This document shows, piece after piece, positions 2,872 to 20,777 of a stretch of 20,777 nt of DNA. The stretch's first letter is position 1. The number at the start of each line of letters is the position of its first letter. Position numbers and translations under genes: made by a program. Source of the DNA: Verrucomicrobiota bacterium (GTDB taxonomy: Bacteria; Verrucomicrobiota; Verrucomicrobiia; Verrucomicrobiales; DEV007); contig JAHDCN010000006.1 in assembly GCA_020629815.1 (NCBI GenBank), positions 1 through 20,777 of the forward strand, in the 5' to 3' direction. The notes under the pieces were generated by a model, which saw only the letters and a program-made list of their open reading frames with translations, did not search any database and was not told the DNA's origin.

Positions 2872-3060
2872 ATGCAAAATTATTCGAAATCCGAAGTTCG
2901 TAAGAATTGGTATTTCCAGCGTTCGCGTATGCGTGCGAATCGCAAGTGGCTGGAACGTCTGCTGCGAAAACGAGGCAATCGACGTGCTGAAAAGCGCGCC
3001 CTGCAAATGGAGGCTCTGGAGCCCCGCGTGCTGTTTTCCGGTGCTCCCGTTCCGGAGGTC
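2872..3060 (+). other. Basic N-terminus with LEPR-XLL-like motif
   Basis: Residues 1-63 of the giant protein. Sixteen of the first 42 residues are Lys or Arg, with Trp/Tyr/Phe interspersed (for example RKNWYFQRSR and RKWLERLLRKRGNRR). There is no hydrophobic core of a classical Sec signal peptide. MEALEPRVLFSGAP follows at residues 46-59. The LEPR-x-L-[LF] motif, preceded by a basic stretch, is known at the N-terminus of very large predicted extracellular proteins in Planctomycetota, Verrucomicrobiota and some Proteobacteria. Its exact export role is not known to me. Confidence 0.8.
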
Positions 3061-6000
3061 ACGGTCGATATGGGCCAGCCGCAGGAGAACTTTGCCGCGT
3101 TGGTTCCTCTTCCGCCGGATCCGGCAACGGGAAATGAAGAAGGAGGGCAACCGGGTGTGGCCGGCGTAGGCGACGAGGAAATGATTGGTGAACACGTAGA
3201 TTTCACCATCACGTTCAACAACGACGGGGACTCAACGGGCTATGCTCCGTACATCGATTTTACGATGGATGCCGGGCTGACATTTGCGAGTTCCGGGGTC
3301 GATCCGGATACAGGTTCGCCTATTTTTGATGCTGATGTGGCGACCTTGAAGGGAACCGAGATTGGCTCGGAGATTCAGGCGGTAGCCCAGGTGTTTGATA
3401 TCGATGCGGCGATTCTGGAGCTGCAGGCCGAAGCGGATGCATGGCTCACTGATCTTAACGGGGGAGTGCCTTCCGTATATGACTTTACCCAAACATTTAA
3501 TACCGGGACCCCCAACGATCCGGCGAATTTGACTTTTAATGCGGACCTGAAAGCATCCTACGATGTACTGCAAAATCTGAAACTTGGTCTGACTACTACA
3601 GCAACTCCGGTTTTTGGTCAGGTTCCGGATCCAAATAATCCCGGGACGCCGCTGGAGAATCGCCTGCAGTATTTTGATACAACTTCGACAGATCCGATCC
3701 TTACTCCGGAAGGCAATCCGGTTGGTCCACAGGATAAGTTCTGGATTCGCCCCTACACGACGATTGACGTGACTTCTCTGCACCAGCAGCAGGATTTGGA
3801 TCGTCTTTTCCGCCTGCGGGTGGATCATCCAATCACGGAAAATAGTCTTCCGGTGTCTGGATCTGGCGGGGCCCCTGACAAGATTCTTACCAATGACCTT
3901 GGCCATGGTGATGTCTATTACACGCTGGCATTGCCTTTCGGCAGCTACACGACCGGGCAGCCTGTATCGATCATTGAGTTTGAAGCACGCATCGATCCTG
4001 ATCGGGGTGCTCAGGTGTTTTACGATGACGATGGTTCTCCGCGTTCAGACTTCGAGCTAGGAGTCGATTCAATTGGTGCCTTTGCCTTTGGCTGTGATCC
4101 TTTTGATAATCCGGATGAAGATCCGATTATCGCGGGAACTGCGAGCGGGGACAGTGTCGTTCCGCAAGTGGTCGAGTTGGTCAAGCACGGCCCCAAAGAA
4201 GCGGTGAAGTTGGGACCTTCGTTTCCCAATTTGTATTCTTTGTATGTCGATGTGGCAGCTGGCGAAACGTTGGAGGACTTGCGAATCGAAGACGTGATTC
4301 CCGATGGTCTCGTGTACGTGCCAAACTCGATTACGATTCAATATCGAAATGGTGCCACAGCGGAAGGTGTTCGTGTCGGGCAACCCGGTGGAGCTGATCC
4401 CGATGGAGGCTATACACAGGCTCAGCTGGACTCTTTTGTCGATAATGACAATCCGAATGTTCCGGGTGGGACGCTCGACATCACCTGGGATTCGTTTACT
4501 GGTGCTGACAATGTCAACGGGAACGGAGATTTTGATTCTTCTTTGGAGAACGACTTTGGAACCGGAAATGTCGGAGGAAGCCCGGACTGGGATATCTACA
4601 TTACCTATGAAGCCTACGCGCCTGAATTCAAGGCGGATGGCTCGGCGAATAGCGGTGAGGTTTCGAATGATGCGAAATTAACCGCGACCCATAACGGCCG
4701 GGATGTGATTGACGATGATACGTACGATCCTGCGGCTCATGATGACTATCGGTTGGATACCGATATGACCAGTGCCGAAATCGGTGGTGCTGGCGCAGGT
4801 AAGAATCGAACCGCAATCTACGATGAAAGCGGAAATCGTGTGACTGGAAGAGAAGCGATTCCGGGCGATATCATCGAGTATCAAATTCAGTTCACTATGT
4901 CGGATTTTCTGGCATTGGATAATCTGGTTATCGAAGACTTTCTCGGCGATGGACAGGTGTACTTTGAAGATGCCGGTCTCACCGTGGGTGGGGCGGATGG
5001 ACACCATGCGATTGAGGACGGAATCACTACTTTCCAAAGTTATATTGCGCTGCAAAGCAAAGGAATTGGAGACGACGCCGTTTTGCTCGGGTCTTTCTTT
5101 GAGGATTCCGGAGGCGATGGCGGGCTCGGACAGGTGAGAACAGTCGTTCCGTTTGGTCAGCCGAATATCACCAATGATATTGTCTTTAATGCGGTAACTG
5201 GCGAGTGGGAAGATGGCAGCGGAAATTCGATTGGGACTGATGCTCCGTTTGGTGAAGACCTCCATGGAGATGGTGGTACCGACTACATGAAGTGGGTATT
5301 CACTGGTTTCGATGAGAATGGAAATCGGACAGGTGCTCTGGTAGATGGGGATACCGATGGTGACGGTTCAGTTGAAGCTGGATTGTTCGGCTTCGGTCAG
5401 GGAGGCACTTTTCAAACAGAAGTCGATGGTGTTGATCTGACGATTGATTCCCTGGACTCGATTGACGCCAACGGCGACGGTCAAAACGATGGTCTTGATT
5501 TGGATAATGATGGCGAGGTCGATCTCTACCATTATCTGGCGGGTGGTTTGTTTGACCCTTATAACGATTCGGATGCGTCAGTAAACAATGAAACCGGGAC
5601 GGGAATTGGCCTGGATGGGGACGGCGATGATCCCGGTTTAATTAATGCGGGAGACCCGGGTGGCTACCACCGCTTCTACGATGAAATTACCATTGATGCT
5701 AATGGGGAAGTGGAAAACGGGGAGCTGCAACATGACGTTCCCGAGGTGCCGAAGTTCACAATTGTGTACTACGCGAAAGTTCAGCCAACTTATCAGTCGG
5801 AGGAACAGGGCGGAGGTGAAGGAACCGATTTGTCCGTTGATCTGACAGACCGGCTTTCAAACTATGTCAGTGTAGCCGGTACGCAGATTACTGACTTTTC
5901 CGGTGATGGTGCGGATGGAGTGAACCCGGGAGAAGACGGGATTCATGACTTGCTGGACGACGAAGGTCGACCTGTCGATGCAGACGGCAATGTGATTGCG

Positions 6001-9000
6001 GTACTACCTGTAACTTATGGAGATGAAATTGACCAGCGGCTGGATGGTGCGCACGTTGATCTGGCACCTGCATCGATAGACAAGGATGTCGTAGCGATTA
6101 ATAACGTTTCCGATGATCCTGCAGATGCGATTAGCATTTTTAACACCGAGAATGGCGGCGGTCCGGGTCTGGATCAGACAGATTTTCTTGGTGAGGGAGA
6201 TCCGGATGGATCGATTGATAATTCAAAGTTGCGGGTAGGGGACACTGTTACCTACCGTCTGACTACTACTCTGCCTTATGCCTCCGGTGAGGACATCAAG
6301 GTCGAAGACTTTCTTCCGCTTCCGGTATTTGATGTATCGACCGATTATCCACAGGGGTTGGTGCAAATCGGTAATTACGATGGCAGCACCAATGCGACGT
6401 TGCCGAACGCCTTTCTGAGTCAGGACGGCAATCCGAATGGCTCCTTTATTGAATGGGCGTATGGCCCGGCTCACGATATCGGCACGGACCGGATTCTCGA
6501 CTCATTTGGAAATCCCATCGACATCGATTTGGAGTTTGATCCAACTCCTGACCTAGGCAACGAAGATAGCCAGGCGGGGACGGTATATTTCAATACGAAC
6601 AACAATTCGATCACTTGGAATTTTGGTACGTGGAATGAGCAGGATGACGGCGACCTGAATACCAACGGAGCTGTCATTGATATTATCTTTACGGTAAAGG
6701 TAAATACTTCGCCGTTTTCTGATGGTCTGTTCCTGACCAATGAAGCCTCTCTGGAGTTTGATAACACGGATCAGGATGAAACTTCGGAATCCTCGATCAT
6801 GCCGATCGAATTGCTCGGGCCTGAACTAAATATTCGTAAAGGGATCATCGAATTGACTCCGGAAGGTGATTCCGGCGGAGCCTCTTTCTCTGGTGGTGGA
6901 GTCGGAGATGGATTGACTGCGGAAGGTCTGGATCTGGATCTGACTGCAGGTGGAGTGACCAGTGCTTTCCTGCATGGGGTTGATACTATCACCAACGAAG
7001 ACCAGTTGGACTCGTGGGCTGCCGTTATTGATAGCAATGTGGTTAACGCAGACGCTGGCGATGTGGCCACTTTCGGAATCTTTGTGGAAAATGTCGGAGG
7101 TGGTGATGCCTATGATGTGGTTATTACCGACTCGCTTTTTGATGGGCCTCTGAATACCGATAACTTTCAAACCAGCCAAACTGTGCTGGTCGATAGCGAC
7201 GCGACGGATACCGCAGGCGGGTATGATCTGAGTTCTCTGAATCTTCAGATTGCTACTGGTGATGGAGAAGTGCTTTCAGGGAGTGCGTTCCTGATCGATG
7301 GGGTTACTGAAGTGGATCTGGGAGGAGGAATTCCCGGAGGGTCAGACTTCACGCTTTTCTATACACCGGGCGAAACACAAACGATTTCGGCGGCCGGGGT
7401 GACTGTTTCGGATGGAACAACTATTCAGATTCCACCGGGAAATACCTTCCTTCCGGAATCCCTGTTCATTTCGGTGGATACGACCGGAAATGTCGTTCCC
7501 GTAGGAGACCCGGTGGAGCCTTATCACGTCACGATTCGGGACGTGGAAGTTACCAATGATGATGGTGAGTTGACCGGTTTTGGTTATCTTCAGGACCACA
7601 ATGGCGAAATTGTCGGGTTTATCGATTATCGCACTGGTCTGGCTACCTTTGGTCAGGAGTTGCAATTCGATGGGGATGGAAATGTGGTCGTCATTGCGGC
7701 GACTGGAGCAGCTGACACAGTTGCCGCCACAATTCCGAGTGGGGCTCCTGAGGGCTATCTTGGATTTGATGTCGACGAGATCACCTACACGGACGCTGCC
7801 CTTAAGGAAAATGAGTTGTTCGAGAATGAGGTGCGCAACGGAAACCTGTTTACCAATCTGGACCATACCGAGGTAGTGCCGAATACGGTGGTGCTGACGG
7901 TGAACTCCGGTACCGGTGATTTGCCTCAAGGGGTTAGTATCGAGCTGCGTGACGATGGTCAGGGCAATCTCTATGCGGTAGATCCGCTGGGTGATTTTAC
8001 GGCAGATCCTCCTTCTACTTCGCCTCCCAATGTAACGATTGGAGGCACCACTTATCCGGTCGTAGGTGTCATTGATTACGAAAGCGGTGAAGTGGATATC
8101 CGGTTGGCGATCAACTGGGATATGGATACGACTTTCAACGTGACCGACGCAATCGGTGCGACGACCAGTGAATCCGGCACGGGAACCTTGGTCAGTGGCG
8201 GAAGTAAGATGCAGGCCAGTCAGACTCTGACTGGAGCGCCGGTTCTTCCGGGAACAGTTCGAATTCTGCAGGGGCCGGATCAGGAGCTTCAAGACGCAGG
8301 AAATGGGTTTCTGGTTGATAGCAGGAACATTCCTCTCGGCACCATCGATTACACTACGGGAGAAATTGATTTTACTATTTCGTCAACGGATACCAGCTAC
8401 ACTGTGGTCTACGACGGTCTGGGAAGTCAGGCCGCCAATGCAAATAATGTGCTGACGGTTCAGGATGGAGTTCTGACCGCACCAACGGAATTGACTTTGG
8501 ATAACGATGTGATCGTTCCGGGATCCGTAAACTTCACTGATCCTGTGCATGGTAATATTACAGATGATGGCAGGGGGAACCTGCTCAACGTCGATGGAAC
8601 AATTGTAGGCACGATTACCTATGCTGCGAATCCTCTGGATGGAACTCCGGCCGGTGCCATCGCTTTTTCTGTGGTGGAAACCCTTTCGCTCTCAGCGAAC
8701 TATGCCACGGCCAATACCTTCCAGATTACGTTTGATGACTTTGCTGTCGATGGACGGGAAGGGATTATTCAGGCGGGACGTGATGAAACGGTCGTTGATG
8801 GCGGGATTCCGACAAATGAGACCGGTAGTAACGTTCTGGTGATTACCTACGATTTGGAACTCAGTGACTCCTGGCAACCTGATGAAGAGCTGACCAATGA
8901 AGTTGCCCTGGAAAGCTATTCCAACGGTGACGAAGGTGAGAATTTGATCTTCCGGGAACGCGAAACGGACATCGCGACTATTGAGGGTAGGGACGTGGAG

Positions 9001-12000
9001 ATCGATAAACGAATTCTGGGCTCCAGCCATGAAGCAACGGGCGTGTTCAATGTGTTCGCCGAAGATCATGGATTGATTGGCGTGGAGAACTATACCTTAA
9101 GCAATACTCAGGATTTTAACCTGAATGAGGATGGTATTGTTCCTGGAAGTGTAGATATCAATTTCCCTGATGCGGAGAACTATACCGTGATCCTGGGGGA
9201 CGGCCGTCAGGCTACTGCCAATGTAGAGGCGGCTTACAATATCGTCGATGACGGTGAAGGGCACCTGATCAACACTGTTCGTAATGTGGGATTCGGTGGT
9301 TCGCATTTGGTAAACGGAAATACCAATGATACCGGTTTGCCTGTTTTTGGCAGCAACGTTTGGGGCGGTGCAGGTGGTCACATCAATATTGTTCCCGGTA
9401 CATTCGAAGTTGTACATACCGACCGGATAGACGATCCATTTACCAATACCACCCGGAATGTGACCAGCTACGAGGAGGTGATTGTTGATTCAGCCACAGG
9501 AATTGCCAATCCGGGAGCAACCGCTGATGATCTGACTACAACTGAAGGTATCATCCTGAAGCATGTGGATCGGGAAATTTATGGAGTGCCATTTGGTGGA
9601 TACGGTATCCGTGGGCAGAACACAGGGATTATCGATGATTTTAATTCTCTGACGCCCCCGGGCAGCGATCCGTTTCGTCAGGGGTTCTATGATCAGTCGA
9701 TCAGTACTTTTTACCTGGATAGCCATCTGGAACCGGGATCGATTACGCTGGACGTAAACATTGCCGGCGTTCAGATGACACTCACTGATGTGCCTGCTTT
9801 AACGGCATCCGGTGCTGCAGGAACAGGCACGAGTTTCAACACCGGAACCGGGGTTCTGGTTGATGGCAGTAGCAATGTGATTGCCAATATTGACTATGAA
9901 ACTGGTGAAGTGGTTTTCGTACAAGCCAACGCGCCTCTCAATGAAGTGATTGCATCCTATACATCCTATTACGGCACGGTTGACTACGAAGATGGTTCAC
10001 TGGATTTGCCGGATGATGCGAATTTCCTCAGTAATAACTCTTTCAACGGAAGTGACTCCAATAATCCTGATTTCACGGGATCCTTCACATTCAGTAATCG
10101 TTTCAACCATGGTCTGGCCGATATTACCTATGACCGCGTTGTGGGAACGGTGGATTATGATGCAGGCGAGATTTCGATTGTTCAAGACTTCAACAATCAC
10201 AACCATCGTGTGACTGGTACGCTGGAACATTACGAAGCGGAAATCGATTACCAATTTACTGATGGTGTCGGTAGTGACGAAATTGCCAATGCTGGAAATC
10301 CTGACCGATCCTACGATGTCGCTGTAGGAGAGGAAGTGATTTACGGTATTGTAGTCACCATTCCTGAGGGCACGACGGAAGAGCTGACGATAACCGATTA
10401 CCTACCCGAGGGCTTGGAGTTGCTCGATATTGAGATCGTGACGCAAGCGGATCAGAGCGAGGGCATGCTGGAAACTGATTTCGCCCTCGATGGGAATATG
10501 CCTCCCTTCAATTTGGTGGTTGGCAACCAGGTGATTGCTCAGCGGGATATTCAGTGGACCCACGCGAACGACGAACTTGGCGATGATGATCCGTTCAATT
10601 TCCCGAATGATCATGGCTATTCCGCCGGTCCGGACGAGCCTTATGGTGTCTTTGGCGGACAGGATATTCAAATCCGGTTCATGGATGGTTTTGTGAATGC
10701 TCACGACCCAATCCAGGATGATTCGGATAATGACGCAACAGATCCGATCGACAGTGCGCAGAACAACACCTTTATGCTACGTCTGGTGACGCGGGTCTTG
10801 AATGCGGAGGATTATGATCCGACTGCTAACGCAGTGGACCCGGCGGATTCAGGAGTCGATGATCTTGATACCGAGACTGTGGTCACTGCGGAAACCGAAC
10901 TGGTTAATACTACCGGAACTTCCTTCGGCCAGGAAACCGGTTCGCCGACCGGGAACTTCAATGGCGCTCTACTGACAAATACCGCCGACGCGACTTACAC
11001 CACCGGTCAGGGCATAGATGTGGTTCTGGAAACGGAAGACGTGAACATTGAGATCGTCGAGCCGGACCTGAACGTTGAGAAAGTCATTCTTGGCGCTGAC
11101 GAAGTCGGAACGCTGAGTAATTTTCCCGGAGGGATCGATTACGAAGTGAATCGCGGCCAGCCGGTCACCTACCAGGTTACGGTTGAGCATACCGAGCAAA
11201 GTAATGCGGATGCCTACAATGTGAATATTCACGACGTCATGCTGGCGACCGATTTTGCCAGCCCGACTCTTTCGGAAACACTCGAACTGGTCAGCTTTAC
11301 GATTCAGTCTTCCGGTGATTCTTTCAATGGGGGCGCACCTTTGACCTTGTTTACCGGTGGCGCTTTTTCTGCCGCTCCGACGATTGCTACGAATAGCTCC
11401 TACAATCTTCCAGAGCTGTTCAGCCTCGATAGCAACGGTGATATCGTCCCTTTCAATTTTGCTGATTTCCAGACCGGACTGAACTTCGATGCCAACACGG
11501 CAACTTCTCATGATCTGGAGGGGACCAGCTATGGTAACAATGGGGAAGCATCATTTAATCTGAACTTTGCCCATCTGCCTCTGGATGAGGATTTGGTGAT
11601 TACCTACACGGTGAATGTTCTGGATGAATCGTTGATCAACAACAACGACAGCGATTCCGATGCGGAGCAAAACGATGTCGAAAACCGGGTGGATATCACT
11701 TGGTACAGTCTCCCGGATCGGGGTGATACCATTAATGATCCGTTCGGAAATACCGACCAGGGTTCCAACCCTGAAGTTCGCGAATATACCGACAGCGATG
11801 CGGTCGCGATGGAGATCGTCGGACCGGATGTGGACCTGGCAATTGTGAAGGGTGTCGTTTCTGTTAATCCGGCGAGCGGAGCTCCTCAGACCTTTACTCA
11901 GGACGGGACGGCTAACAATGATTCCGACGACGACGGCAATTTTGATGATGATTCGTTTGTCGCAATAGTGGACGAATCTGCAGCGGGTGTGACTGCCGGC

Positions 12001-15000
12001 TTGAATAATACAACCGGACTGCCTGCGACGATCACGAGTGAATGGCTCCACCCTGAGATGAACGCCACCACGCCGAACATGGCGTGGAACGCGCAGCTGG
12101 ATCGCGATCTGCTGACTGAAAATGGCGGAGTCGATGCCGGCGATGTGGTGACCTATGCGATTATCGTGGAAAACCAGGGAACGTCGGAGGCATTCGATAT
12201 CACCCTGACGGATGTGCTTTCTCTGATTAATACCAGTGGTGATACCTCACTGGGTAGTGTGGCAAATGTTCAGGTTCGCCTCGGCGACGGGACTCCGATT
12301 GCAGCAGCGGATTTTTCTCAGACTACTGTTGATGCGGACGGGGACACAGATCTGGACGATCTCCAGTGGACCTTTACCGGAGAGGTTCTTCAGGCAGGAC
12401 GCGATCAGGAGAATCTGGCGCTTAATAACACGACCGGTTCGAACATTCTCGTGATCACCTACGAGATGACGATTGGAAACAACTTCCAGGCTCTGGATGA
12501 AGTCTCCAATGCGGCAACCATTACGGAATACTATTCTCAGGATGACACCAATCCGGGCCGTGCTAATGAAGCGGATCCGGACAATGATCCTCTTCTGAGT
12601 GATCAGGCCATTGTCGAAGGGCGAACCATTTCGGTAGATAAACAATTGTTCACCACCAGCCTGGAGCATACGGGTGAAGAGTTCACGGAGTCAGTTGCGT
12701 TTACAGATCCGGCTGCGACGACTCTCGAAGGTTCGGTGATTGATTTGTCATCACTGGCCAACTTCCCGGAGAATGCAGCTTTGGAAGTCGGATCGGTGAC
12801 TGTGGATTTGAATGGCACTGTCTTTACCGAAATTGGTACGGGTGCATTGATTCAGACAGGGATTGCTGAGCCCGGACCGATTGCTTTTGATGCGGCGGCC
12901 GGAACGATTACTCTGACAGCAGATGATATTGTTGCAGGTGCATTGGAACTGGATACCGGCAGCTTTACCTTCGACAACGGAACGATTAAAGACAGCTCGG
13001 GAACGATTGTTGGTTCCTACGTGAATACCGCAGATGATGTGACCACGGTGAATCTCGTTCCGGGGTCTTTTGCGTCCGTAACATCGGCGACCTACGACCG
13101 CGAGATTGCGGATATCAATTACAACGATGGGCTGATTACCTTCACTGAGGATGTAGCTGATGCACCGAGTGTGGGCTACACGCCTTCGGTGTCATTTACC
13201 CGCACCTTTGGTGACGCAGGCACAACCGACCTGACTCCAGGTGAAACGGTCTACTACGACATCCTGGTAACGATGCCGGAAGGTGTGGTCGGAACAGCGG
13301 TGAACGGATTGCTGATTACTGATCATTTGCCGGATGGACTGGAAGTGATGGGGCTGGAAATTGTTACCGACCCTGCCAGCTCGACCGACAAAGCCACGCA
13401 ACTGGCCAATGGAGAATCCGACCTGTTGACGGCTGCATTCGGTGCGACTGCTCCGACTTTTCAATCGGTGAATGGAAATGCGGCTGCCGGAAGTAGCGTA
13501 GATCTCAGCGGTGCGCCAATTAGTGGCGAAGATGTAGTGATGGACCTGGGCATTGTTTCCAATGGGTCCGACGACATTGTAAATGACACCTTTGTGGTTC
13601 GGGTGGAAGCTCGTGTCCTCAATGGGTTGAATTACAATCCGTTCGCCAATGGCAGTGATCCAGCAGCCTCCGGAACCTCGGATCTCGATGCAGCTGAGCC
13701 GGTAGCCACCAATGGCGCGGCTCTTGGTTCGGAAACGGGATCGCCTACCGGAAACCTGGAGGCGGCGATTCTTACCAACACCGCTTCGGCGTCTTTCGTC
13801 GATGGTCAGGGCGAGACCCAGACTCTCACCAGCGGTCAGGTCAATATTGAGATCGTCAATCCGGATTTGATTGTCGATAAAGTGATCACTTCTGGAAACC
13901 TGGCGGCTCCGGGGATGGATGCGACCTATGAGATTCGCGTTTCACACAGTGATCTCAGTACGGGGGATGCCTTTGATTTGATCATTGATGATGCCCTGGA
14001 GATGGCGGCAGGTCGCACCAGTGCGCACGCCTATATGCATACCATTTCTGTTTTGAAAGATGGTGTCGCATTGAGCAGTCCAGCCGACTTCACAGATACC
14101 AGTGACATCGGACCCGGAGGTGCGAATACGATTTCTTTGGAAGGCTTCGATCTGGCTCTGGGTGAAGAACTGGTGATCAGTTACAGCGTTCGGGTGGTTG
14201 ATCCTACCGGCGGAGTGCTGGAAACGGATAACATTGCGAATGGAGATCCGGCCGAGCCTTTGAGCTTTACCGGCGAAGACGGCGTTTCTGACTACCAACC
14301 GGATATTCCAACCTCGTATGAACTGGAAGATACGATTGTGGTTACCAAAGGTTACGAAGAGACCTTTGACTGGACCTACAACGGAACCAACATCAATTTC
14401 GCCAACCCGTCTTTTGTGGGAGCTGAGACAATCACCATAACGGCGACCGATGGAACCAGCACAACCATTAGCGGAGTGGACAGCCAGTCGAGCTATGCCT
14501 ACGCCGTTCCGGCTGGAGAAGATATCGCTTCGATTACCGTCGATCACTCCCTGGAGCGCGATACCGATTGGACCTTTGATAAGGATACTGACACCGTTAC
14601 TTTTATCGACTTTGAATTCGATGGTGGGGAGTCGATTGCTGCGACCTCGATTAGTACCGATGCCGATATTCTAAACGAAGCGGAAGTTACTTACTACAAT
14701 ATCGAAGACGGGGAGAATAACCCGGAAGTTCGTGAGTATCAGAAGTCGGATATTGAAGGCCTGGAAGTCATTGATCCCGACCTGGATGTCAATCTGGTCA
14801 AGAGCGTCCTCAGCGTGTCCCGTGCGGATACTTCGGCTAATGATCCGGATACATTTACCGCTGACGTCAGTCGTGATAGCACAACGGAAGACCTGACTTT
14901 TGCGACCAGCGTTGATCCCGATACAGGCGAAGATATTTACTCTATTACCCGAGCAACAGGGGATTTTGGAACCGACGACTATTCGGCAGGGGATACCATC

Positions 15001-18000
15001 ACGATAGCCGGTACGGCATCCAATGACCGTGTCTATACCATCGTCAGCGTCGATGGCGCGACGATCACAGTGGAAGAAGTCATTACAGTGGAGGGGCCGG
15101 TTTCCTCTCAGTTTGCTGCGGGTGATGATACCGTGAACGATACCTACACGGCGGGGATGACGGTTACATCCGAGATGTTGCACAACGAGTCAGACCCGAC
15201 TGATGCCAATATTTGGCGTGATGCTTTTGACCGGGATCTGTCCGCTCTCAACGGGGGAGTCTACAATGGCGACACCGTGACCTTTGGTCTGTTCGTAGAA
15301 AATGCCGGTGACGATGAAGTGTTTGAAATCAACGTGACTGATACCTGGACCGTCGGCGCCAACGATCTCGATGCTGACGCGGAAGGAGCCGGGGAGATCG
15401 ATCTCGCTTCAGTAAGAGTTTACCTTGGTGACGGAACCGAAGTGGATGCAGCGAATTATACCGTTAGCGGTAGCCTGTCGGGTGGAGATTTTGCGGTGAA
15501 GTTCACTGACTTTTCTTTGGCCAGCGGAACCGATAATGAGGACGGCACCAATATTGCAATCATCACCTACGACGTCGTGGTTCGAAACGACATTGAAGAC
15601 GTCCTGTATGATCGCGAGACTAATACCGCTGAAGTGGATTTCTACACGGCGGAAGATGACTCGATCACGAATTTCGCACCGGAAGATCCAGATGGCTTGC
15701 TCACCGATATCGCCTATGTCGAGACTCGGGGTGCAATTGCAGAAATCGAAAAACGGATTTTTGAGACGAGTGAGCCTCATACAGGCAGCGAGCAGCACAA
15801 TCTGCCTGGGCAGGATGTGGAGGTGACGATTCCTGCGAGTGAGAATCTGATCCTGATCGATGATGATTTTTCCACCTTTGGATTTTACGGAGGTGGATCA
15901 CAACTGAGAAATGCGGTCGAACCCGGAACCGAAGGCTTTTGGATCGGCAACGGCAATTGGCGGAATAGCAATGCAATAACTGTTCTGAACCCCAGCTTTG
16001 AAGCGGATGGCTTGGGCAATAATCAACAAGATTCTGATATTGATGATTGGAATGACCCGAATAGTGGATCGCCTGGTCAGACGTCCAATGCCTGGGATCC
16101 TCCTAACTGGCAAATTACACCACGTCATGGCAGTAATGTTGCCTTTTCCCGCATAGACCCAATCAATCAGACGATCGCAGACCCGAATGGTACGATTCAG
16201 GCCGGGCGGAGCTATACCCTTACCGTTGAGGTCTGGGATTCGAGTGCGCACGTTACGAACGGATATGATATCGAACTCCGTGCCTTTGATTCCGGAAGTG
16301 GGACGTTCACGGTTTTGGATGCGGTGGATGAAGTTAGTGATCCTGTTCCGGTAGCGACATCAAATGGCGGAGCCTACACGACTGTTACTCTGACTTTTGA
16401 CGCTGATTCCAATCCTGCTTTGATTGGTCAGCAACTCGATATCAATCTTGTTGGCGGAGGCGTAAGTCCGAATCTGGTTGCCTTTGACAACGTTCGTCTT
16501 TCGTACACTGATCCTAATGGTTTCCTGACTCACCCGAATGGCGGTGCAGGTGCAGCTGTCGATGGTGCTATTGGTAAACTGATTGATGTAACTGGTGTCT
16601 CTGATTCCTCATTGCAGAACCTGCAGATTAGCTTGGACCATTTGGCAGGTGACGAACGGGAAGATTTTCGAATCCACGTGTGGGGCTATGTAGACAATGG
16701 TGCGGGAAGTTTGGGGAATGGAACCCTGAATACTGGCGCTCAGGGCGGAAACTCCTGGGAGTCATCCGGTGCGGGCTGGGATCAATACAACTTAATTGGT
16801 GACTGGAATGCCAATCCCAATGTTGGCGCCGCAGTAAGTGCCCAGTTGGTCACTGCAACCGACGCAGGTTGGGTGACTTCGACTTTCGATATCGATCTCA
16901 CGAATTTGGCACCGTTGCCTCCACAGCACGCCGGGCAGCCACCAGCTCCATCTGACTTATCGGGCTACGATTACATTGTGGTCGGCATTGCTCGAAATGG
17001 GACAGGATCCAGTCTTTCCATCGATAACGTTCTCCTGGAAGCAATCGGCGAGGGAGAACAGACAATTACCGTTCCCGGAGCCACTGACGACTTCGTCGAT
17101 TTGGTTGTTGGAGAAACGGTCACGTATGACCTTGAAGTTACCTTCGAAGAAGGAACCTGGAACAACGTAGTAGTCGAAGATCTGTTACCGGAAGGTCTGG
17201 AATACGTAACCGGGTCCGCTGTGATTGCAGCGAACGATGCCGGCATTACATCTGACACAGAGAATCTCGCAGTAGGGGAGTCTCTGGTTCCTGCGATTGA
17301 CGAGCAGACCCTTACCTTTGATTTGGGGCAGGTCGTAAATCCGGGCAATACGGTTGGAGCTACCGACAGCTTTACCATTCGTCTGACCGCTCTGGTGAAG
17401 GATGTGGACAGCAATGTGGACGGAGTGGTGAAAATCAACAACGCGACCCTCACGGCTCTCGCTGATGTCGCACCAAGTGCGAACTATACCGTTAACGATG
17501 ACGACGATGCTTCGATTGATATCGTTGATCCTGAGTTGGAGTTAAGAAAGTTTGTAACGAACGACAGCGGTGCCCTGAGTGATAATCAGGATAGCACGGG
17601 AGCCTACGCCGTTCCTGAAGGCGATGCCGGAGATACGTTTACCAATACAGTTGTAGTCGATCACAATGATGCGGAGTCAAGTTTTGATCGGAGCACTCAA
17701 ACCTTTTCAACAACGGCTGACTATTCGCTACACGATTCGGAAAGGGCTGACTCAACTGCAGATGCATTTGATCTGACAATTGTCGATACCGTTTCCGATA
17801 CCAGACTTGACTATAAAGAAGGGACTCTGGTTGTGGTGAGGCACAATGCCGATGGTTCGACAACAACTCTCACTGCTGATACTGATGGGACAGTCACAGC
17901 CGATGAGTATGTGCTTCGGGAAGGTGCTGACACTACGGCTGGTGAGGGCTTTGAAATTGATCTGGCTGCTTTGGAATTGGAGCAGGGATTGGTCATTACT

Positions 18001-20777
18001 TTTGACACTCAGCTCAATGACACGATCACCGCCAATGAGATGGTGGAGAATATCGCTTCAGTTGATTGGGATAGCCTCCCTTCAGAGCCGGGTGACCCGG
18101 ATTTCACCGAAGAACGCTCCGGTAGCGACAGTGATGATGCGGATATCAAGACTGGTGCCTTTGTTGATATTGAAAAGGTAATCGTAGGAACCGATCTGGA
18201 TCACACCGAAGTGGACCAGCACAATGTGCCGGGGGAAGAGCCTGTGGGCGATAACCTCTGGAATGTTCAAGTCGTAAATCTGACCAGTGAGTCAAGCACG
18301 ACGACGCTTACTCCGGGGATTAATACCATTACCGCCCGAGGACAGGAAATTGATGTTCACGTTGAAGAGAACAATGGCGAGAACTGGTTGCTCATTGGGC
18401 GTGGTCGAGAAGGATGGGAGTTTGATACGGATGGTCAGGGAGATGCGGCAGAGGTGAGCCAGGGCTTGGGAACTTCTGCTGCCTTCGATCCAGCTGCCTA
18501 CAGTGATGCTGTAGTTAATGATATCCTGCAGCAGCTTGGTGTTGGGATGGACGAAGTAGAAATAAGGCTGAAGCGTGCATCTACGGCTGATGGAACTGGT
18601 GAATACCAAGAGGTACGCTGGAGGGATTTTGTCGGAAACGATAATGCCTTTACTTTTGATTTTGAGGACAATCAGTATTCCATAGAAACAGAGTATGTTA
18701 ATGCTCCTGCCGGCCTCACGGGGGCTGCAACAGGAACTCAACCCACTGGCAATACTCGAGATACCTATCTGGTAAATCCTGCAACCACAAATAACGCTGG
18801 CCGTGTCTTTACCTGGCCCTGGAATCAGCACGGCTCACAAAGAGGATTCAGCTACGGTGCTGGTGTGAATGGGGTTAACGATGCGACGGACCCTAATTCC
18901 TTCCTTTGGGAAAATAGTGGCACTGCCTATACAGGAGCTTCCGGCGAAAACCATGCGATCCCCTACACCGAAATCTACATCCGACCGATCTCGGGTGATC
19001 TAACTCTGGATTCAAACAATTCCAATCTGATTGCCAATGGGAGTTTTGAAGTGAATTCCGGCACAGGCGCATGGACCGGGAACTCGAATGAGCTGGGCTC
19101 AAACCCGCGCGATGCGTCGTCTGGAACTGTGAATGAATGGCTAAGAACCGGGCGAACCTGGCTTTACGAAGATATTGGTGGAGCAAATTTCCCGGACGGT
19201 GAGTTCGCGGCGTCAGTTGATGCTCGCTCCGACATTGGCGGGATCGATGTTCTTGCACAGGAAGGCCTGAATCTGGAAGCGGGCACAACCTACACGCTGA
19301 CGTTTGACTTGTTTGGACCGAATGTCGGTGCAACGGAGCCTTTGGACGTCCGTTTCACACATGGTTACACCGATCCATTGGATCCAACTAGCGGAACCGG
19401 CGTTACCATTATTGATGAGCAGAGCACTGTCGGTAATGACGGAGATATTGAGACCGTTACGGTCGAGTTCACGCCAACTGTGACGGCAAGCTATGCCATC
19501 CAGTTTTTCATGGATGGCACGGGTGCGACTAATAACCATGTCTACATTGATAATGTGAGTCTGGTAGCGCCTGCCGTGGCATCTACCTCGAATCCGACTT
19601 TTGCGGAATGGCAAACGATCTGGAACGAAGTCGACAATGGTCAGCCGATTTCCTTTGGTGGTGGAGGTAATGCAACTCAATCCGTAGATCAGGAAACCGC
19701 CTTCGACTATGCGGGTGATGCCGGGGGCTTTGGCACGAACAATGCCATCGGCACTATCAACAACGACGGTCCGGGCGGAGGTGACGGGCCGTTCGCTCCG
19801 AATGGAAGCGAAGGGGATAACTTTAGCGTTCGGGGACAGACCTTCATTCAGTTCGATCAGGCCGGAACCTATACCATTGCTTTTGGCAGTGCGGATGGTC
19901 GCACGCTTGCCCTGACAGAAGCCGTGCCGGGATCGGCTCCAGGTTACACAGGGTTCACCGCTCAAGGTGGTGATGGAGATGCTGGCTTCACAGCCGGGAG
20001 CACTACGATTGGATTAACTGAAGGCGCTCTTGTGGCGACGGGCGACCTTGGGTTTACCGGCGATTCATCTGCCTTTGCAGGTCGTGATAACGGCCAGCGC
20101 ATTAATATCGACAAGACGTATGCCATGAATCTTACAGCTGGGACTTACCAGCTGGATGAGCTGGAGTTCCGGCACACAACAACTGCAGCGGGTGGCTCGA
20201 TCACTCCCTTTCTCGTGGTGGAAACCGGTACAACGGATGAGTTTGAGGTGATTTGGTTGGGGGCGGCGCAGAATCTTACTGCAGCTACAAGCGCCGTTGA
20301 GATGATTGATCTGTCCGGAGAGTCTTTTACCCTGGCGGCTGATGCTACGGTTTACCTGGGTTTTCAACAAACGGGAGGTGCTGGCATTCTCAGAACGAAC
20401 GGAATTGGCACAACGGCCCATGATAACGATACCACCGCAGCGCCAACTGCAGTTGGGCAAATTATTGATGGTGGCGATGGGGCTGGTCCTAATGCTCCAA
20501 GCTGGACTCAGCCAACATGGGGAAATACATTTGCTATAAGTCTGGGGCTTCTCGAAGGCGGATTCACACCATCACAAACGACCGGCACGTTTACGGTAGA
20601 GGCAGGCGACGTTCTTTTTCTTGATGCCTTTTATTTCGAAGACGCAGGAGCTGATTTCGGTGAGATTTCGATTTCCAGCGATGGAACGAATTTTGAACTG
20701 CTGTCTTCTGATGCCCTTGGTGATACGGTTCACATCTCCTCCGACCCTGCACCTTTCCTCGACTTCGCGGACGACGA
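2872..20777 (+). CDS. Giant LEPR-motif, multi-module surface/adhesin-like protein (5968+ residues, 3' end outside window)
   Basis: One frame is open from ATG 2872 to the right edge: 5968 full codons with no stop, read line by line. An in-frame TAG at 2866-2868 fixes the upstream limit; ATG 2872 is preferred over TTG 2869. The protein is Asp/Asn/Gly/Thr-rich, and I read a single cysteine (TGT 4093-4095, residue 408). Order: basic N-terminus with LEPR motif (1-58); DUF11/D2-like beta modules (about 100-1316); three super-repeats of X-Y-Z modules (1316-5097); then a fourth Y module start, a fibrinogen-like domain (5151-5372), a carbohydrate-binding-like jelly roll (5385-5568) and a PA14-like region. 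Family knowledge: LEPR-XLL and DUF11 proteins of PVC bacteria are predicted exported and very long. Adhesion, matrix attachment or a cell-surface fibre is inferred. No protease, polymerase or other enzyme motif is seen, and no C-terminal anchor is visible because the end is missing. Confidence 0.95.
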   Translation, partial: MQNYSKSEVRKNWYFQRSRMRANRKWLERLLRKRGNRRAEKRALQMEALEPRVLFSGAPVPEVTVDMGQPQENFAALVPLPPDPATGNEEGGQPGVAGVGDEEMIGEHVDFTITFNNDGDSTGYAPYIDFTMDAGLTFASSGVDPDTGSPIFDADVATLKGTEIGSEIQAVAQVFDIDAAILELQAEADAWLTDLNGGVPSVYDFTQTFNTGTPNDPANLTFNADLKASYDVLQNLKLGLTTTATPVFGQVPDPNNPGTPLENRLQYFDTTSTDPILTPEGNPVGPQDKFWIRPYTTIDVTSLHQQQDLDRLFRLRVDHPITENSLPVSGSGGAPDKILTNDLGHGDVYYTLALPFGSYTTGQPVSIIEFEARIDPDRGAQVFYDDDGSPRSDFELGVDSIGAFAFGCDPFDNPDEDPIIAGTASGDSVVPQVVELVKHGPKEAVKLGPSFPNLYSLYVDVAAGETLEDLRIEDVIPDGLVYVPNSITIQYRNGATAEGVRVGQPGGADPDGGYTQAQLDSFVDNDNPNVPGGTLDITWDSFTGADNVNGNGDFDSSLENDFGTGNVGGSPDWDIYITYEAYAPEFKADGSANSGEVSNDAKLTATHNGRDVIDDDTYDPAAHDDYRLDTDMTSAEIGGAGAGKNRTAIYDESGNRVTGREAIPGDIIEYQIQFTMSDFLALDNLVIEDFLGDGQVYFEDAGLTVGGADGHHAIEDGITTFQSYIALQSKGIGDDAVLLGSFFEDSGGDGGLGQVRTVVPFGQPNITNDIVFNAVTGEWEDGSGNSIGTDAPFGEDLHGDGGTDYMKWVFTGFDENGNRTGALVDGDTDGDGSVEAGLFGFGQGGTFQTEVDGVDLTIDSLDSIDANGDGQNDGLDLDNDGEVDLYHYLAGGLFDPYNDSDASVNNETGTGIGLDGDGDDPGLINAGDPGGYHRFYDEITIDANGEVENGELQHDVPEVPKFTIVYYAKVQPTYQSEEQGGGEGTDLSVDLTDRLSNYVSVAGTQITDFSGDGADGVNPGEDGIHDLLDDEGRPVDADGNVIAVLPVTYGDEIDQRLDGAHVDLAPASIDKDVVAINNVSDDPADAISIFNTENGGGPGLDQTDFLGEGDPDGSIDNSKLRVGDTVTYRLTTTLPYASGEDIKVEDFLPLPVFDVSTDYPQGLVQIGNYDGSTNATLPNAFLSQDGNPNGSFIEWAYGPAHDIGTDRILDSFGNPIDIDLEFDPTPDLGNEDSQAGTVYFNTNNNSITWNFGTWNEQDDGDLNTNGAVIDIIFTVKVNTSPFSDGLFLTNEASLEFDNTDQDETSESSIMPIELLGPELNIRKGIIELTPEGDSGGASFSGGGVGDGLTAEGLDLDLTAGGVTSAFLHGVDTITNEDQLDSWAAVIDSNVVNADAGDVATFGIFVENVGGGDAYDVVITDSLFDGPLNTDNFQTSQTVLVDSDATDTAGGYDLSSLNLQIATGDGEVLSGSAFLIDGVTEVDLGGGIPGGSDFTLFYTPGETQTISAAGVTVSDGTTIQIPPGNTFLPESLFISVDTTGNVVPVGDPVEPYHVTIRDVEVTNDDGELTGFGYLQDHNGEIVGFIDYRTGLATFGQELQFDGDGNVVVIAATGAADTVAATIPSGAPEGYLGFDVDEITYTDAALKENELFENEVRNGNLFTNLDHTEVVPNTVVLTVNSGTGDLPQGVSIELRDDGQGNLYAVDPLGDFTADPPSTSPPNVTIGGTTYPVVGVIDYESGEVDIRLAINWDMDTTFNVTDAIGATTSESGTGTLVSGGSKMQASQTLTGAPVLPGTVRILQGPDQELQDAGNGFLVDSRNIPLGTIDYTTGEIDFTISSTDTSYTVVYDGLGSQAANANNVLTVQDGVLTAPTELTLDNDVIVPGSVNFTDPVHGNITDDGRGNLLNVDGTIVGTITYAANPLDGTPAGAIAFSVVETLSLSANYATANTFQITFDDFAVDGREGIIQAGRDETVVDGGIPTNETGSNVLVITYDLELSDSWQPDEELTNEVALESYSNGDEGENLIFRERETDIATIEGRDVEIDKRILGSSHEATGVFNVFAEDHGLIGVENYTLSNTQDFNLNEDGIVPGSVDINFPDAENYTVILGDGRQATANVEAAYNIVDDGEGHLINTVRNVGFGGSHLVNGNTNDTGLPVFGSNVWGGAGGHINIVPGTFEVVHTDRIDDPFTNTTRNVTSYEEVIVDSATGIANPGATADDLTTTEGIILKHVDREIYGVPFGGYGIRGQNTGIIDDFNSLTPPGSDPFRQGFYDQSISTFYLDSHLEPGSITLDVNIAGVQMTLTDVPALTASGAAGTGTSFNTGTGVLVDGSSNVIANIDYETGEVVFVQANAPLNEVIASYTSYYGTVDYEDGSLDLPDDANFLSNNSFNGSDSNNPDFTGSFTFSNRFNHGLADITYDRVVGTVDYDAGEISIVQDFNNHNHRVTGTLEHYEAEIDYQFTDGVGSDEIANAGNPDRSYDVAVGEEVIYGIVVTIPEGTTEELTITDYLPEGLELLDIEIVTQADQSEGMLETDFALDGNMPPFNLVVGNQVIAQRDIQWTHANDELGDDDPFNFPNDHGYSAGPDEPYGVFGGQDIQIRFMDGFVNAHDPIQDDSDNDATDPIDSAQNNTFMLRLVTRVLNAEDYDPTANAVDPADSGVDDLDTETVVTAETELVNTTGTSFGQETGSPTGNFNGALLTNTADATYTTGQGIDVVLETEDVNIEIVEPDLNVEKVILGADEVGTLSNFPGGIDYEVNRGQPVTYQVTVEHTEQSNADAYNVNIHDVMLATDFASPTLSETLELVSFTIQSSGDSFNGGAPLTLFTGGAFSAAPTIATNSSYNLPELFSLDSNGDIVPFNFADFQTGLNFDANTATSHDLEGTSYGNNGEASFNLNFAHLPLDEDLVITYTVNVLDESLINNNDSDSDAEQNDVENRVDITWYSLPDRGDTINDPFGNTDQGSNPEVREYTDSDAVAMEIVGPDVDLAIVKGVVSVNPASGAPQTFTQDGTANNDSDDDGNFDDDSFVAIVDESAAGVTAGLNNTTGLPATITSEWLHPEMNATTPNMAWNAQLDRDLLTENGGVDAGDVVTYAIIVENQGTSEAFDITLTDVLSLINTSGDTSLGSVANVQVRLGDGTPIAAADFSQTTVDADGDTDLDDLQWTFTGEVLQAGRDQENLALNNTTGSNILVITYEMTIGNNFQALDEVSNAATITEYYSQDDTNPGRANEADPDNDPLLSDQAIVEGRTISVDKQLFTTSLEHTGEEFTESVAFTDPAATTLEGSVIDLSSLANFPENAALEVGSVTVDLNGTVFTEIGTGALIQTGIAEPGPIAFDAAAGTITLTADDIVAGALELDTGSFTFDNGTIKDSSGTIVGSYVNTADDVTTVNLVPGSFASVTSATYDREIADINYNDGLITFTEDVADAPSVGYTPSVSFTRTFGDAGTTDLTPGETVYYDILVTMPEGVVGTAVNGLLITDHLPDGLEVMGLEIVTDPASSTDKATQLANGESDLLTAAFGATAPTFQSVNGNAAAGSSVDLSGAPISGEDVVMDLGIVSNGSDDIVNDTFVVRVEARVLNGLNYNPFANGSDPAASGTSDLDAAEPVATNGAALGSETGSPTGNLEAAILTNTASASFVDGQGETQTLTSGQVNIEIVNPDLIVDKVITSGNLAAPGMDATYEIRVSHSDLSTGDAFDLIIDDALEMAAGRTSAHAYMHTISVLKDGVALSSPADFTDTSDIGPGGANTISLEGFDLALGEELVISYSVRVVDPTGGVLETDNIANGDPAEPLSFTGEDGVSDYQPDIPTSYELEDTIVVTKGYEETFDWTYNGTNINFANPSFVGAETITITATDGTSTTISGVDSQSSYAYAVPAGEDIASITVDHSLERDTDWTFDKDTDTVTFIDFEFDGGESIAATSISTDADILNEAEVTYYNIEDGENNPEVREYQKSDIEGLEVIDPDLDVNLVKSVLSVSRADTSANDPDTFTADVSRDSTTEDLTFATSVDPDTGEDIYSITRATGDFGTDDYSAGDTITIAGTASNDRVYTIVSVDGATITVEEVITVEGPVSSQFAAGDDTVNDTYTAGMTVTSEMLHNESDPTDANIWRDAFDRDLSALNGGVYNGDTVTFGLFVENAGDDEVFEINVTDTWTVGANDLDADAEGAGEIDLASVRVYLGDGTEVDAANYTVSGSLSGGDFAVKFTDFSLASGTDNEDGTNIAIITYDVVVRNDIEDVLYDRETNTAEVDFYTAEDDSITNFAPEDPDGLLTDIAYVETRGAIAEIEKRIFETSEPHTGSEQHNLPGQDVEVTIPASENLILIDDDFSTFGFYGGGSQLRNAVEPGTEGFWIGNGNWRNSNAITVLNPSFEADGLGNNQQDSDIDDWNDPNSGSPGQTSNAWDPPNWQITPRHGSNVAFSRIDPINQTIADPNGTIQAGRSYTLTVEVWDSSAHVTNGYDIELRAFDSGSGTFTVLDAVDEVSDPVPVATSNGGAYTTVTLTFDADSNPALIGQQLDINLVGGGVSPNLVAFDNVRLSYTDPNGFLTHPNGGAGAAVDGAIGKLIDVTGVSDSSLQNLQISLDHLAGDEREDFRIHVWGYVDNGAGSLGNGTLNTGAQGGNSWESSGAGWDQYNLIGDWNANPNVGAAVSAQLVTATDAGWVTSTFDIDLTNLAPLPPQHAGQPPAPSDLSGYDYIVVGIARNGTGSSLSIDNVLLEAIGEGEQTITVPGATDDFVDLVVGETVTYDLEVTFEEGTWNNVVVEDLLPEGLEYVTGSAVIAANDAGITSDTENLAVGESLVPAIDEQTLTFDLGQVVNPGNTVGATDSFTIRLTALVKDVDSNVDGVVKINNATLTALADVAPSANYTVNDDDDASIDIVDPELELRKFVTNDSGALSDNQDSTGAYAVPEGDAGDTFTNTVVVDHNDAESSFDRSTQTFSTTADYSLHDSERADSTADAFDLTIVDTVSDTRLDYKEGTLVVVRHNADGSTTTLTADTDGTVTADEYVLREGADTTAGEGFEIDLAALELEQGLVITFDTQLNDTITANEMVENIASVDWDSLPSEPGDPDFTEERSGSDSDDADIKTGAFVDIEKVIVGTDLDHTEVDQHNVPGEEPVGDNLWNVQVVNLTSESSTTTLTPGINTITARGQEIDVHVEENNGENWLLIGRGREGWEFDTDGQGDAAEVSQGLGTSAAFDPAAYSDAVVNDILQQLGVGMDEVEIRLKRASTADGTGEYQEVRWRDFVGNDNAFTFDFEDNQYSIETEYVNAPAGLTGAATGTQPTGNTRDTYLVNPATTNNAGRVFTWPWNQHGSQRGFSYGAGVNGVNDATDPNSFLWENSGTAYTGASGENHAIPYTEIYIRPISGDLTLDSNNSNLIANGSFEVNSGTGAWTGNSNELGSNPRDASSGTVNEWLRTGRTWLYEDIGGANFPDGEFAASVDARSDIGGIDVLAQEGLNLEAGTTYTLTFDLFGPNVGATEPLDVRFTHGYTDPLDPTSGTGVTIIDEQSTVGNDGDIETVTVEFTPTVTASYAIQFFMDGTGATNNHVYIDNVSLVAPAVASTSNPTFAEWQTIWNEVDNGQPISFGGGGNATQSVDQETAFDYAGDAGGFGTNNAIGTINNDGPGGGDGPFAPNGSEGDNFSVRGQTFIQFDQAGTYTIAFGSADGRTLALTEAVPGSAPGYTGFTAQGGDGDAGFTAGSTTIGLTEGALVATGDLGFTGDSSAFAGRDNGQRINIDKTYAMNLTAGTYQLDELEFRHTTTAAGGSITPFLVVETGTTDEFEVIWLGAAQNLTAATSAVEMIDLSGESFTLAADATVYLGFQQTGGAGILRTNGIGTTAHDNDTTAAPTAVGQIIDGGDGAGPNAPSWTQPTWGNTFAISLGLLEGGFTPSQTTGTFTVEAGDVLFLDAFYFEDAGADFGEISISSDGTNFELLSSDALGDTVHISSDPAPFLDFADD
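3181..4140 (+). other. First beta-module region of the giant protein (DUF11-like start)
   Basis: Residues about 104-423. It opens with IGEHVDFTITFNNDGDSTGY then APYIDFTMDAGLTF, a DUF11-type first half (G-x-x-V-x-[FY]-x-[IV]-x-[FVT]-x-N). The middle (DVLQNLKLGLTTTATPVFGQ and onwards) has no motif I recognise. The end (VYYTLALPFGSYTTGQPVSI) looks like a second beta module. It contains the only cysteine codon I read in the whole gene (residue 408, FGCDPF). Function is unassigned beyond structural beta-sandwich. Confidence 0.5.
4165..4680 (+). other. DUF11/D2-like module with Lys-Asp-Asn triad
   Basis: Residues about 432-604. First strand VVELVKHGP (Lys codon 4183), central LRIEDVIPDGLVYVPNSI (Asp codon 4291) as in 'ITDxLPxGL' modules, and last strand GEVSNDAKLTAT (Asn codon 4666). 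This is the earliest clear example of the K...D...N pattern that recurs through the protein. Confidence 0.55.
4786..5880 (+). other. D2-like module with Asp-rich calcium-type loops
   Basis: Residues about 639-1004. The module motif is AIPGDIIEYQIQFTMSDF, then LVIEDFLGDGQVYF (Asp codon 4936). Between 5344 and 5640 there are clustered Asp/Gly loops: DGDTDGDGS (5344-5370), DANGDGQNDGLDLDNDGEVD (5464-5523) and LDGDGDDPG (5608-5634). These resemble thrombospondin type-3 or dockerin-like calcium-binding loops. The last strand RLSNYVSVAGT carries Asn (codon 5860). Calcium binding is inferred from the loop pattern only. Confidence 0.55.
6070..6816 (+). other. Y-type (D2-like) module preceding the super-repeats
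   Basis: Residues about 1067-1315. First strand ASIDKDVVAI (Lys codon 6082); LRVGDTVTYRLTTTLP and IKVEDFLPLPVFDV (Asp codon 6307); last strand FLTNEASLEFDN (Asn codon 6739). It matches the Y modules of the later cycles but lacks the 'TSxxHTG' segment. It is followed directly by the first strand of super-repeat 1. Confidence 0.6.
7495..8680 (+). repeat. Cluster of four 'PGSV...DDGxG...GxIDYxTGE' mini-modules inserted in X1
   Basis: Residues about 1542-1937. Each unit ends with a G-x-I-[DT]-Y-x-x-G-like strand: IVGFIDYRTGLATF (IDY at 7621), VGVIDYESGEVDI (8071), LGTIDYTTGEIDF (8344), VGTITYAANP (8614). Three are preceded by a P-[GN]-[ST]-V strand (VVPNTVVL 7873, VLPGTVRIL 8242, IVPGSVNF 8515) and a loop such as RDDGQGNLYAVD, QDAGNGFLVDS or TDDGRGNLLNVD. 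They lie between the ITD strand (7129) and the ITYD strand (8845) of module X1. Cycles 2 and 3 lack them at this site. I do not recognise a named family with certainty. Confidence 0.65.
9136..10260 (+). repeat. Second cluster of 'PGSV...IDYxTGE' mini-modules inserted in Y1
   Basis: Residues about 2089-2463. Copies or partial copies: IVPGSVDINFPD with VDDGEGHL (9136-9270, the IDY strand absent or diverged), LEPGSITLDV with GVLVDGSSNVIANIDYETGE (IDY at 9892), YGTVDYEDGSLDL (9979), VVGTVDYDAGEISI (10150) and EAEIDYQFTDG (10243). A related copy sits in the same slot of cycle 2: LVPGSFASV with EIADINYNDGLITF (13054-13140). The placement between the HTG motif and the PEG motif of Y modules is the same in both cycles. 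Confidence 0.6.
11821..14772 (+). repeat. Super-repeat 2 (modules X2-Y2-Z2) within the giant protein
   Basis: Residues 2984-3967, the most compact cycle. X2: GPDVDLAIVKGV (11821), SEWLHPEMNATT, GDVVTYAIIVENQGTS (12139) and ITLTD (to 12213), TGSNILVITYEMTI (12436), VSNAATITEYY. Y2: RTISVDKQLFTTSLEHTG (12622), LTPGETVYYDILVTMPEG (13231), LLITDHLPDGLEVMGLEIVT (to 13368), ETGSPTGNLEAAILTNTASA (13732-13791). Z2: VNPDLIVDKVI (13855), ATYEIRVSHSDLSTGDAFD, then an additional module (14332-14700: IVVTKGYEETFDW to ADILNEAEVTYYN), and EVREYQKSDIEGLEVI. Each block aligns in order with super-repeats 1 and 3. Confidence 0.8.
14773..18159 (+). repeat. Super-repeat 3 (modules X3-Y3-Z3) within the giant protein
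   Basis: Residues 3968-5096. X3: DPDLDVNLVKSVLSV (14773), SEMLHNESDPTD, GDTVTFGLFVENAGDD (15268) and INVTD (to 15342), NIAIITYDVVV (15550), RETNTAEVDFYT. Y3: AIAEIEKRIFETSEPHTG (15733), then an inserted jelly-roll block (about 15840-17090), VVGETVTYDLEVTFEEGTW (17104), VVEDLLPEGLEYV, KINNATLTAL. Z3: DPELELRKFV (17527), NTVVVDHNDAESSFD, VENIASVDWDSLPSEPGDP (18043). The Y3 end lacks the ETGSPTGN segment shared by cycles 1 and 2. Confidence 0.78.
15841..17090 (+). other. Inserted jelly-roll (carbohydrate-binding-like) block in Y3
   Basis: Residues about 4324-4740. One domain covers 15970-16512: AITVLNPSFEADG, then AGRSYTLTVEVWDSS and YTTVTLTFDADSNPALIGQQ, ending VAFDNVRLSYTD. This is the NPSFE...G..YTL...V.FDNVRL layout of CBM4/9-like or DUF642-like jelly rolls. 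A second segment covers 16561-17065: GAIGKLIDVTGVSDSSLQNL through DLSGYDYIVVGIARN to SLSIDNVLLEAI, probably another beta sandwich. Sugar binding is inferred from the fold-type pattern; binding residues cannot be named. Confidence 0.55.
18160..18321 (+). other. Start of a fourth Y module (HTG-type first strand)
   Basis: Residues about 5097-5150. FVDIEKVIVGTDLDHTEVDQ matches the Y-module openings at 8995, 12631 and 15739, including the Lys of the first strand (codon 18175). It directly follows the Z3 end, so an X module is skipped. The matching D2 motif and last strand are not reached in the remaining 2.4 kb of the window. Confidence 0.6.
18322..18987 (+). other. Fibrinogen-C-terminal-like domain
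   Basis: Residues 5151-5372. It opens NTITARGQEIDVHVEENNGE then NWLLIGRGREGWEF (codons about 18394-18423), which resembles the 'GGW.L.GRG..GW' opening of fibrinogen-related domains. A Trp/Gly-rich second half follows: RVFTWPWNQHGSQRGFSYGA and ENHAIPYTEIYIRP. Length (about 222 residues) fits the family. Fibrinogen-related domains bind glycans or acetylated groups in other systems. The usual disulfides are absent, as there is no cysteine. The call is by motif resemblance only. Confidence 0.5.
19024..19575 (+). other. Carbohydrate-binding-like jelly-roll module
   Basis: Residues 5385-5568. NLIANGSFEVNSGTGAWTGN opens it; GLNLEAGTTYTLTFDLFGPN is the mid strand pair; ASYAIQFFMDGTGAT and HVYIDNVSLVAP close it. 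This is the NGSFE...W...AG.TYTL.F...IDNVSL pattern of CBM4/9-like modules and is similar in layout to the block at 15970-16512. Confidence 0.6.
19588..20777 (+). other. PA14-like / beta-rich region at the window edge
   Basis: Residues about 5573-5969, incomplete. GDNFSVRGQTFIQFDQAGTY then TIAFGSADGRTLAL (19819-19917) has the 'F..pGtY.F...SdDG..L' look of PA14-like modules. The following stretch (AYAMNLTAGTYQLDELEFRH-like strands, DLSGESFTLAADATVYLGFQ) looks like another beta sandwich. The last visible part (TFTVEAGDVLFLDAFYFEDA) ends at the edge without a stop. No anchor or sorting motif is seen. Confidence 0.4.

Follow-up and report, generated by a model that had tools for sequence, protein, structure and literature searches.

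Proteins of several described kinds come close to the one analyzed here: giants with an N-terminal LEPR-XLL motif (NF012209), proteins with isopeptide-forming D2 (TIGR04226) or DUF11 domains, sortase-anchored pilins and microbial surface components recognizing adhesive matrix molecules (MSCRAMMs), and GhpA, the grappling hook protein A of Aureispira sp. CCB-QB1 (9flp_A, 5898 aa; PDB 9flp and seven further entries). GhpA is a heptamer that is exported by the type IX secretion system (T9SS) and used in predation; its eight PDB entries comprise 56 chains, which would fit seven chains each. Our subject is a giant open frame on contig JAHDCN010000006.1 of a Verrucomicrobiota bacterium (GCA_020629815.1), of which the window, that is, the whole stretch of DNA analyzed, covers 20,777 bases. 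An original prediction, made from the letters of the window, held that three module types (X, Y, and Z) keep the same order in three successive cycles of the encoded protein. This super-repeat is real, old, and hierarchical, and it belongs to a family that is known in kind (giants with isopeptide and DUF11 domains), its own architecture being a new variant. The explanation that we regard as likely is a giant, probably secreted, adhesive surface stalk of immunoglobulin (Ig)-type modules with block-copied and diverged units.

Module order and clustering by type

The stretch 6817-18156 is covered, almost free of gaps, by nine modules in the predicted order X1Y1Z1-X2Y2Z2-X3Y3Z3, all on the + strand. 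X1 occupies 6817-8991 and carries an insert at 7318-8691; Y1 (8992-11058) consists of a Lys strand, an insert (9052-10305), and a core (10306-11058), and the Z1 slot lies between Y1 and X2 (11059-11820). The second cycle is formed by X2 (11821-12624), Y2 (12625-13857, with an insert at 12685-13221), and the Z2 slot between Y2 and X3 (13858-14772), the third by X3 (14773-15729), Y3 (15736-17526, insert 15802-17094), and the Z3 slot after Y3 (17527-18156). A fourth Y begins with a Lys strand at 18157-18219 and continues as a long insert to 20777; judged by eye against the orthologue, most of its core apparently lies within the gap that follows the window.

Profiles made from the modules were rerun on the frames of the source genome (G000) and of a second genome of the same genus (G029), whose contig C95 supplied the orthologue. 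The window gene reads XYZ XYZ XYZ YZ XYZ YZ YZ, its fourth Y being a 14-bit remnant beside the gap, and C95 reads XYZ XYZ XYZ YZ XYZ YZ XYZ YZ X. Contig C133 gives XYZ XYZ YZ Y(Z), C144 and one C586 frame give two XYZ apiece, and C524 gives one; three more frames in the survey end at contig ends or gaps. As a repeating triplet, X-Y-Z holds for the three cycles of the window, but beyond it X is sometimes skipped, leaving YZ units. The expected successor type follows 44 of the 45 X or Y modules that have one (2000 shuffles: mean 17.4, maximum 29), the sole exception being a fragment match ahead of an X.

In a quick tree of 82 module heads from the two genomes (72 columns, head starts placed with the type profiles), X, Y, Z, and the regions A and B that precede X1 separate with 4 type changes, the minimum for five groups (shuffled mean 43.2; 0 of 200 shuffles as low). 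Z, A, and B each form one side of a branch, with Z arising within X and A within Y. In this module tree, which the original prediction had proposed as a check, the modules thus cluster by type and not by neighbor. Same-type modules are similar, the other-type Z mean being 1.0. A self-BLAST of the whole protein returned only the trivial diagonal, and the protein was therefore cut into pieces for comparison.

Since the giant protein matches DUF11 models (PF01345, TIGR01451) as well as D2, a generic similarity among its modules is expected, and the protein might be read as an ordinary DUF11 array in which the types arose by chance and the order has no meaning. However, the clustering at the minimum number of changes, the other-type Z mean of 1.0, the 44/45 order, and the fact that B, X, and Y each have homologues of their own type in other phyla (see below) speak against such an array, which we rejected as very improbable. 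An assembly artefact might be suspected from the two 100-N gaps just past the window and from identical 55-base contig ends in G029, but 6817-18156 contains no gap, the cycles show no DNA similarity to one another, and all nine modules recur, identically ordered, in the second genome. Contradicted by this orthologue, an artefact has next to no probability and was likewise rejected.

Two side observations concern these genes. The Y modules come in two flavors, "PEG" and "EEGTW" (100/99; window 12625-17526 and C95), Y3 having the second; toward the end of the gene, the repeat unit appears to be X-Ya-Z-Yb-Z, which would add a second hierarchical level. In G029, locus L052 (contig C105) has exactly 55 bases in common with the ends of C133 and C95. 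It seems that this assembly broke where paralogous giants carry similar copies, and giant genes may for that reason be under-counted in draft genomes.

Isopeptide-type domains and inserts

By sequence, the three module types belong to the isopeptide-type Ig domains, of which they represent old subtypes; a Lys, an Asp, and an Asn are near-invariant in them. Counted over the two genomes, these three residues show little or no variation in X and Z; in Y, the Asp and Asn are near-invariant by count and the Lys, located in the upstream strand, by eye. They are mostly retained in relatives, and we presume their roles in the bond (Lys, acid, Asn) from CnaA/D2 domains. TIGR04226 scores 52.5 and 54.8 bits (cut-off 30), with the best stretches in Y1 and Y3, and the Y model weakly resembles isopeptide pilins, BcpA among them, and ACE19. 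The predicted structure of X2Y2Z2 is of low confidence, and its Foldseek list (PrgB Ig-like, BcpA, SpaA, and many integrins) was not used beyond "Ig-like." We also noticed an invariant His in Z (26/26 in the two genomes, 15/24 in relatives), which sits about one position after the place of the invariant Glu of X (20/20).

Between the preceding module and the Y core lie 34-80 residues where the copy is short and 183-1710 where it is long. Known lectin-like domains over cut-off are present in three of nine inserts scanned, namely that of the window's Y3, one on C95, and one on C133; they are HpiC1-like, Laminin_G_3, F5/8-type-C, or DUF642 domains. The HpiC1-like domain of Y3 lies at 15973-16503 on the + strand (PF22825, 65.9 bits, cut-off 27) and is presumably carbohydrate-binding-like. 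Between the orthologues, identity is 39% in the Y3 insert and 38% in the Y4 insert, both of which differ greatly in length, as against 77% in the Y3 core; the inserts of X1, Y1, and Y2 (60-73%) stay within the module range of 56-81%. The pattern is in keeping with a putative braced stalk, some of whose binding cassettes would be exchangeable.

Age and phase of the duplication

Each of the nine window modules has as its sister the module at the same position in the G029 orthologue, and the cycles are therefore older than the split between the two species. The ancient block duplication followed by divergence of the original prediction is upheld as to age; as to the unit, the clearest copied block is best seen as Y-Z-X rather than X-Y-Z, a phase that the topologies of the X and Y trees fit. 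Duplication of a whole X-Y-Z block twice, giving three triplets as first written, would agree with the nine contiguous ordered modules, the similarity within types, and the clustering by type; weakened by those same X and Y topologies, it appears unlikely to us. X modules were found in 5 of 33 genomes of the genus. Outside these groups, 16 of the 18 loci compared have a single strong X, on which ground the re-copying of X looks lineage-specific.

In the block-copied stalk that we favor, the LEPR-XLL N-terminus and a conserved head (A and B) would be followed by a stalk of three CnaA/D2-type Ig subtypes, in each domain of which we expect a Lys-Asn isopeptide bond to act as an internal lock. The family's old layout would have been A-B-X, with a single X, and Y and Z modules behind it. 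In the lineage of the window, the stalk would have been lengthened by copying multi-domain blocks including X, best seen as Y-Z-X, and then have diverged and gained units without X. The loop after the first Y strand may serve as a tolerant insert site, with some inserts lectin-like and differing between species. The product would be a long, stiff, covalently braced adhesive fiber that presents binding modules at intervals. Of this account, the module order, the clustering by type, the age, the conserved residues, and the inserts are observed, while the isopeptide bonds, the secretion, the surface location, the stiffness, and the adhesion are inferred. Three results weigh against parts of this account: the D2 matches are placed in Y only and not in X or Z; no known domain scores over cut-off in six of the nine inserts scanned; and the Y-Z-X phase finds no confirmation in the Z tree, a point that counts for the X-Y-Z block. 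If the account holds, the protein would provide an orderable case of giant-protein growth, in which multi-domain blocks are copied, the identity of the parts outlasts species, and one loop accepts new domains.

Relatives in other phyla and GhpA

Relatives with a single X are found in Stieleria, Gemmataceae, Anaerolineae, Sulfitobacter, Litoreibacter, Rhizobiales, and others (L056-L074). When profiles that include rows from these cross-phylum relatives were compared with PDB sequences, B matched GhpA at 507-640 (E 1.3e-12), X at 672-798 (E 9.4e-5), and Y at 827-976 (E 9.9e-16). GhpA ranks first among the PDB matches of B and of Y; for X it comes second, after the surface protein Spb1 (1.1e-6). 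The three domains are collinear in GhpA. No GhpA match was given by the B and Y profiles restricted to the lineage (A10, A11), by the entire head (A6) or its parts A8 and A9, by the Z profile (A5), or by window bases 2872-11058, from the start through Y1, used in one piece. With these queries missing GhpA, the relation is transitive via the cross-phylum family and covers three domains; we treat the link as a lead and not as membership.

This collinear match is what would favor a grappling-hook-type protein, in which B-X-Y would be the same functional part as in GhpA and a giant extracellular assembly would catch prey or particles. We find this doubtful, given the profiles that miss GhpA and the secretion genes: the sheath protein of the type VI secretion system (T6SS; VipB, PF05943) is found in none of the five genus genomes searched, one of them 69% complete, and the T9SS tail PF18962 was likewise found in none of the five, a search that may be insensitive, as no control genome exceeded the cut-off. 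A bolder proposal, which we hold just as tentatively, is that B-X-Y may be the conserved assembly core of giant grappling fibers in at least five phyla (Verrucomicrobiota, Planctomycetota, Chloroflexota, and Pseudomonadota, with Bacteroidota through GhpA), fiber length being set by the Y-Z-X copy number and specificity by lectin cassettes swapped into the Y loop. The cross-phylum B-X-Y block would offer a sequence handle on whether grappling-hook-type proteins are widespread.

A separate observation was made in a distant relative, G234 (L101-L102), where ten Z matches, most of them equal-scoring, stand about 316 aa apart over residues 4589-7482 of an 8021-aa frame. This regular series is probably a recent repeat of a seemingly YZ-sized unit.

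Source frame, protein ends, and neighboring genes

The source contig comprises 28,064 bases, with the window as its bases 1-20777, ending at the first N gap, and belongs to a 3.5-Mb draft genome that is 69% complete. On the + strand, the giant frame opens at TTG 2869 or ATG 2872, runs to the window end at 20777, and continues to contig base 27468, giving 8,198 codons from the ATG with the two 100-N gaps (contig 20778-20877 and 22428-22527) included. The start at ATG 2872 agrees with the N-termini of paralogues. It is followed on the same strand by the LEPR-XLL motif (LEPRVLFSGAP, 3001-3060; NF012209 27.9 bits, cut-off 17), by the N-terminal region A (3118-6069, alignment A6), which is conserved in nine relatives from three other phyla, and by domain B ("...DFLPLPVFD...LTNEA," 6070-6816).

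LEPR-XLL occurs in 23 of 56 relatives, in frames of up to 18,544 aa. At the other end, the last 176 residues or so (contig 26938-27465, or L017:6938-7465, beyond the window) match nothing in Pfam or NCBIfam up to E 1. This C-terminal stretch recurs in 32 matches, some weak, from 10 of the 56 relatives, all of the same genus; in ten loci read, the match ends at most 75 residues from the stop, which in one locus falls just inside the match. Fifteen of the 32 matches share a frame with a listed LEPR-XLL match, as compared by genome, contig, and frame length. The two ends look like a sorting or anchoring pair for giants with different middles, and the C-terminal domain is possibly a new sorting or anchor domain. 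No LPXTG was seen in the C-terminal sequence read by eye, which ends in ...SGIGGVLE.

LEPR-XLL giants also stand in tandem (G007:C52 and C80, G004:C57, G000:C586), with frames of 18,544 and 16,801 aa in G004. At six tandem junctions, 414-889 bases separate the C-terminal domain of one giant from the LEPR-XLL of its neighbor; other junctions are wider.

Upstream of the giant gene are a FecR/LamG-like frame (1-1290, - strand), an extracytoplasmic function (ECF) sigma factor (1260-1790, -), and a PAS-AraC regulator (1925-2680, +). These genes have no match at E<=1e-3 on the 16 neighborhood stretches compared, which include the tail of the same contig and L054, a repeat of C95, and they were not used as a clue. 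A plasmid tblastn gave no match.

Comparison with known systems

Like the LEPR-XLL giants, the protein carries the motif at its N-terminus; many such giants, however, were matched only at their ends, and X modules were found in few genomes of the genus. With isopeptide D2/DUF11 proteins it shares scores over the cut-offs, the conserved Lys-Asp-Asn, and the weakly BcpA/ACE19-like Y, but it differs in its three stable subtypes, their fixed order, the block-copied X, and a length of thousands of residues without LPXTG in the C-terminal sequence read. The C-terminal LPXTG and membrane segment of sortase-anchored pilins and MSCRAMMs were not found in its C-terminus as read by eye. In the single-X relatives, Y and Z modules likewise come after X, A and B could be aligned in nine of these relatives, and their B, X, and Y match type by type across phyla; they differ in having one strong X only (16 of 18 loci), and the loop after the Y Lys strand is short in the seven high-scoring Y modules examined. 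GhpA, finally, lacks detectable A or Z similarity, the C-terminus of the giant protein matches no known tail family, and no T6SS sheath was found in the genus genomes searched, whereas consecutive B, X, and Y, in profiles including cross-phylum rows, stand in the same order in both.
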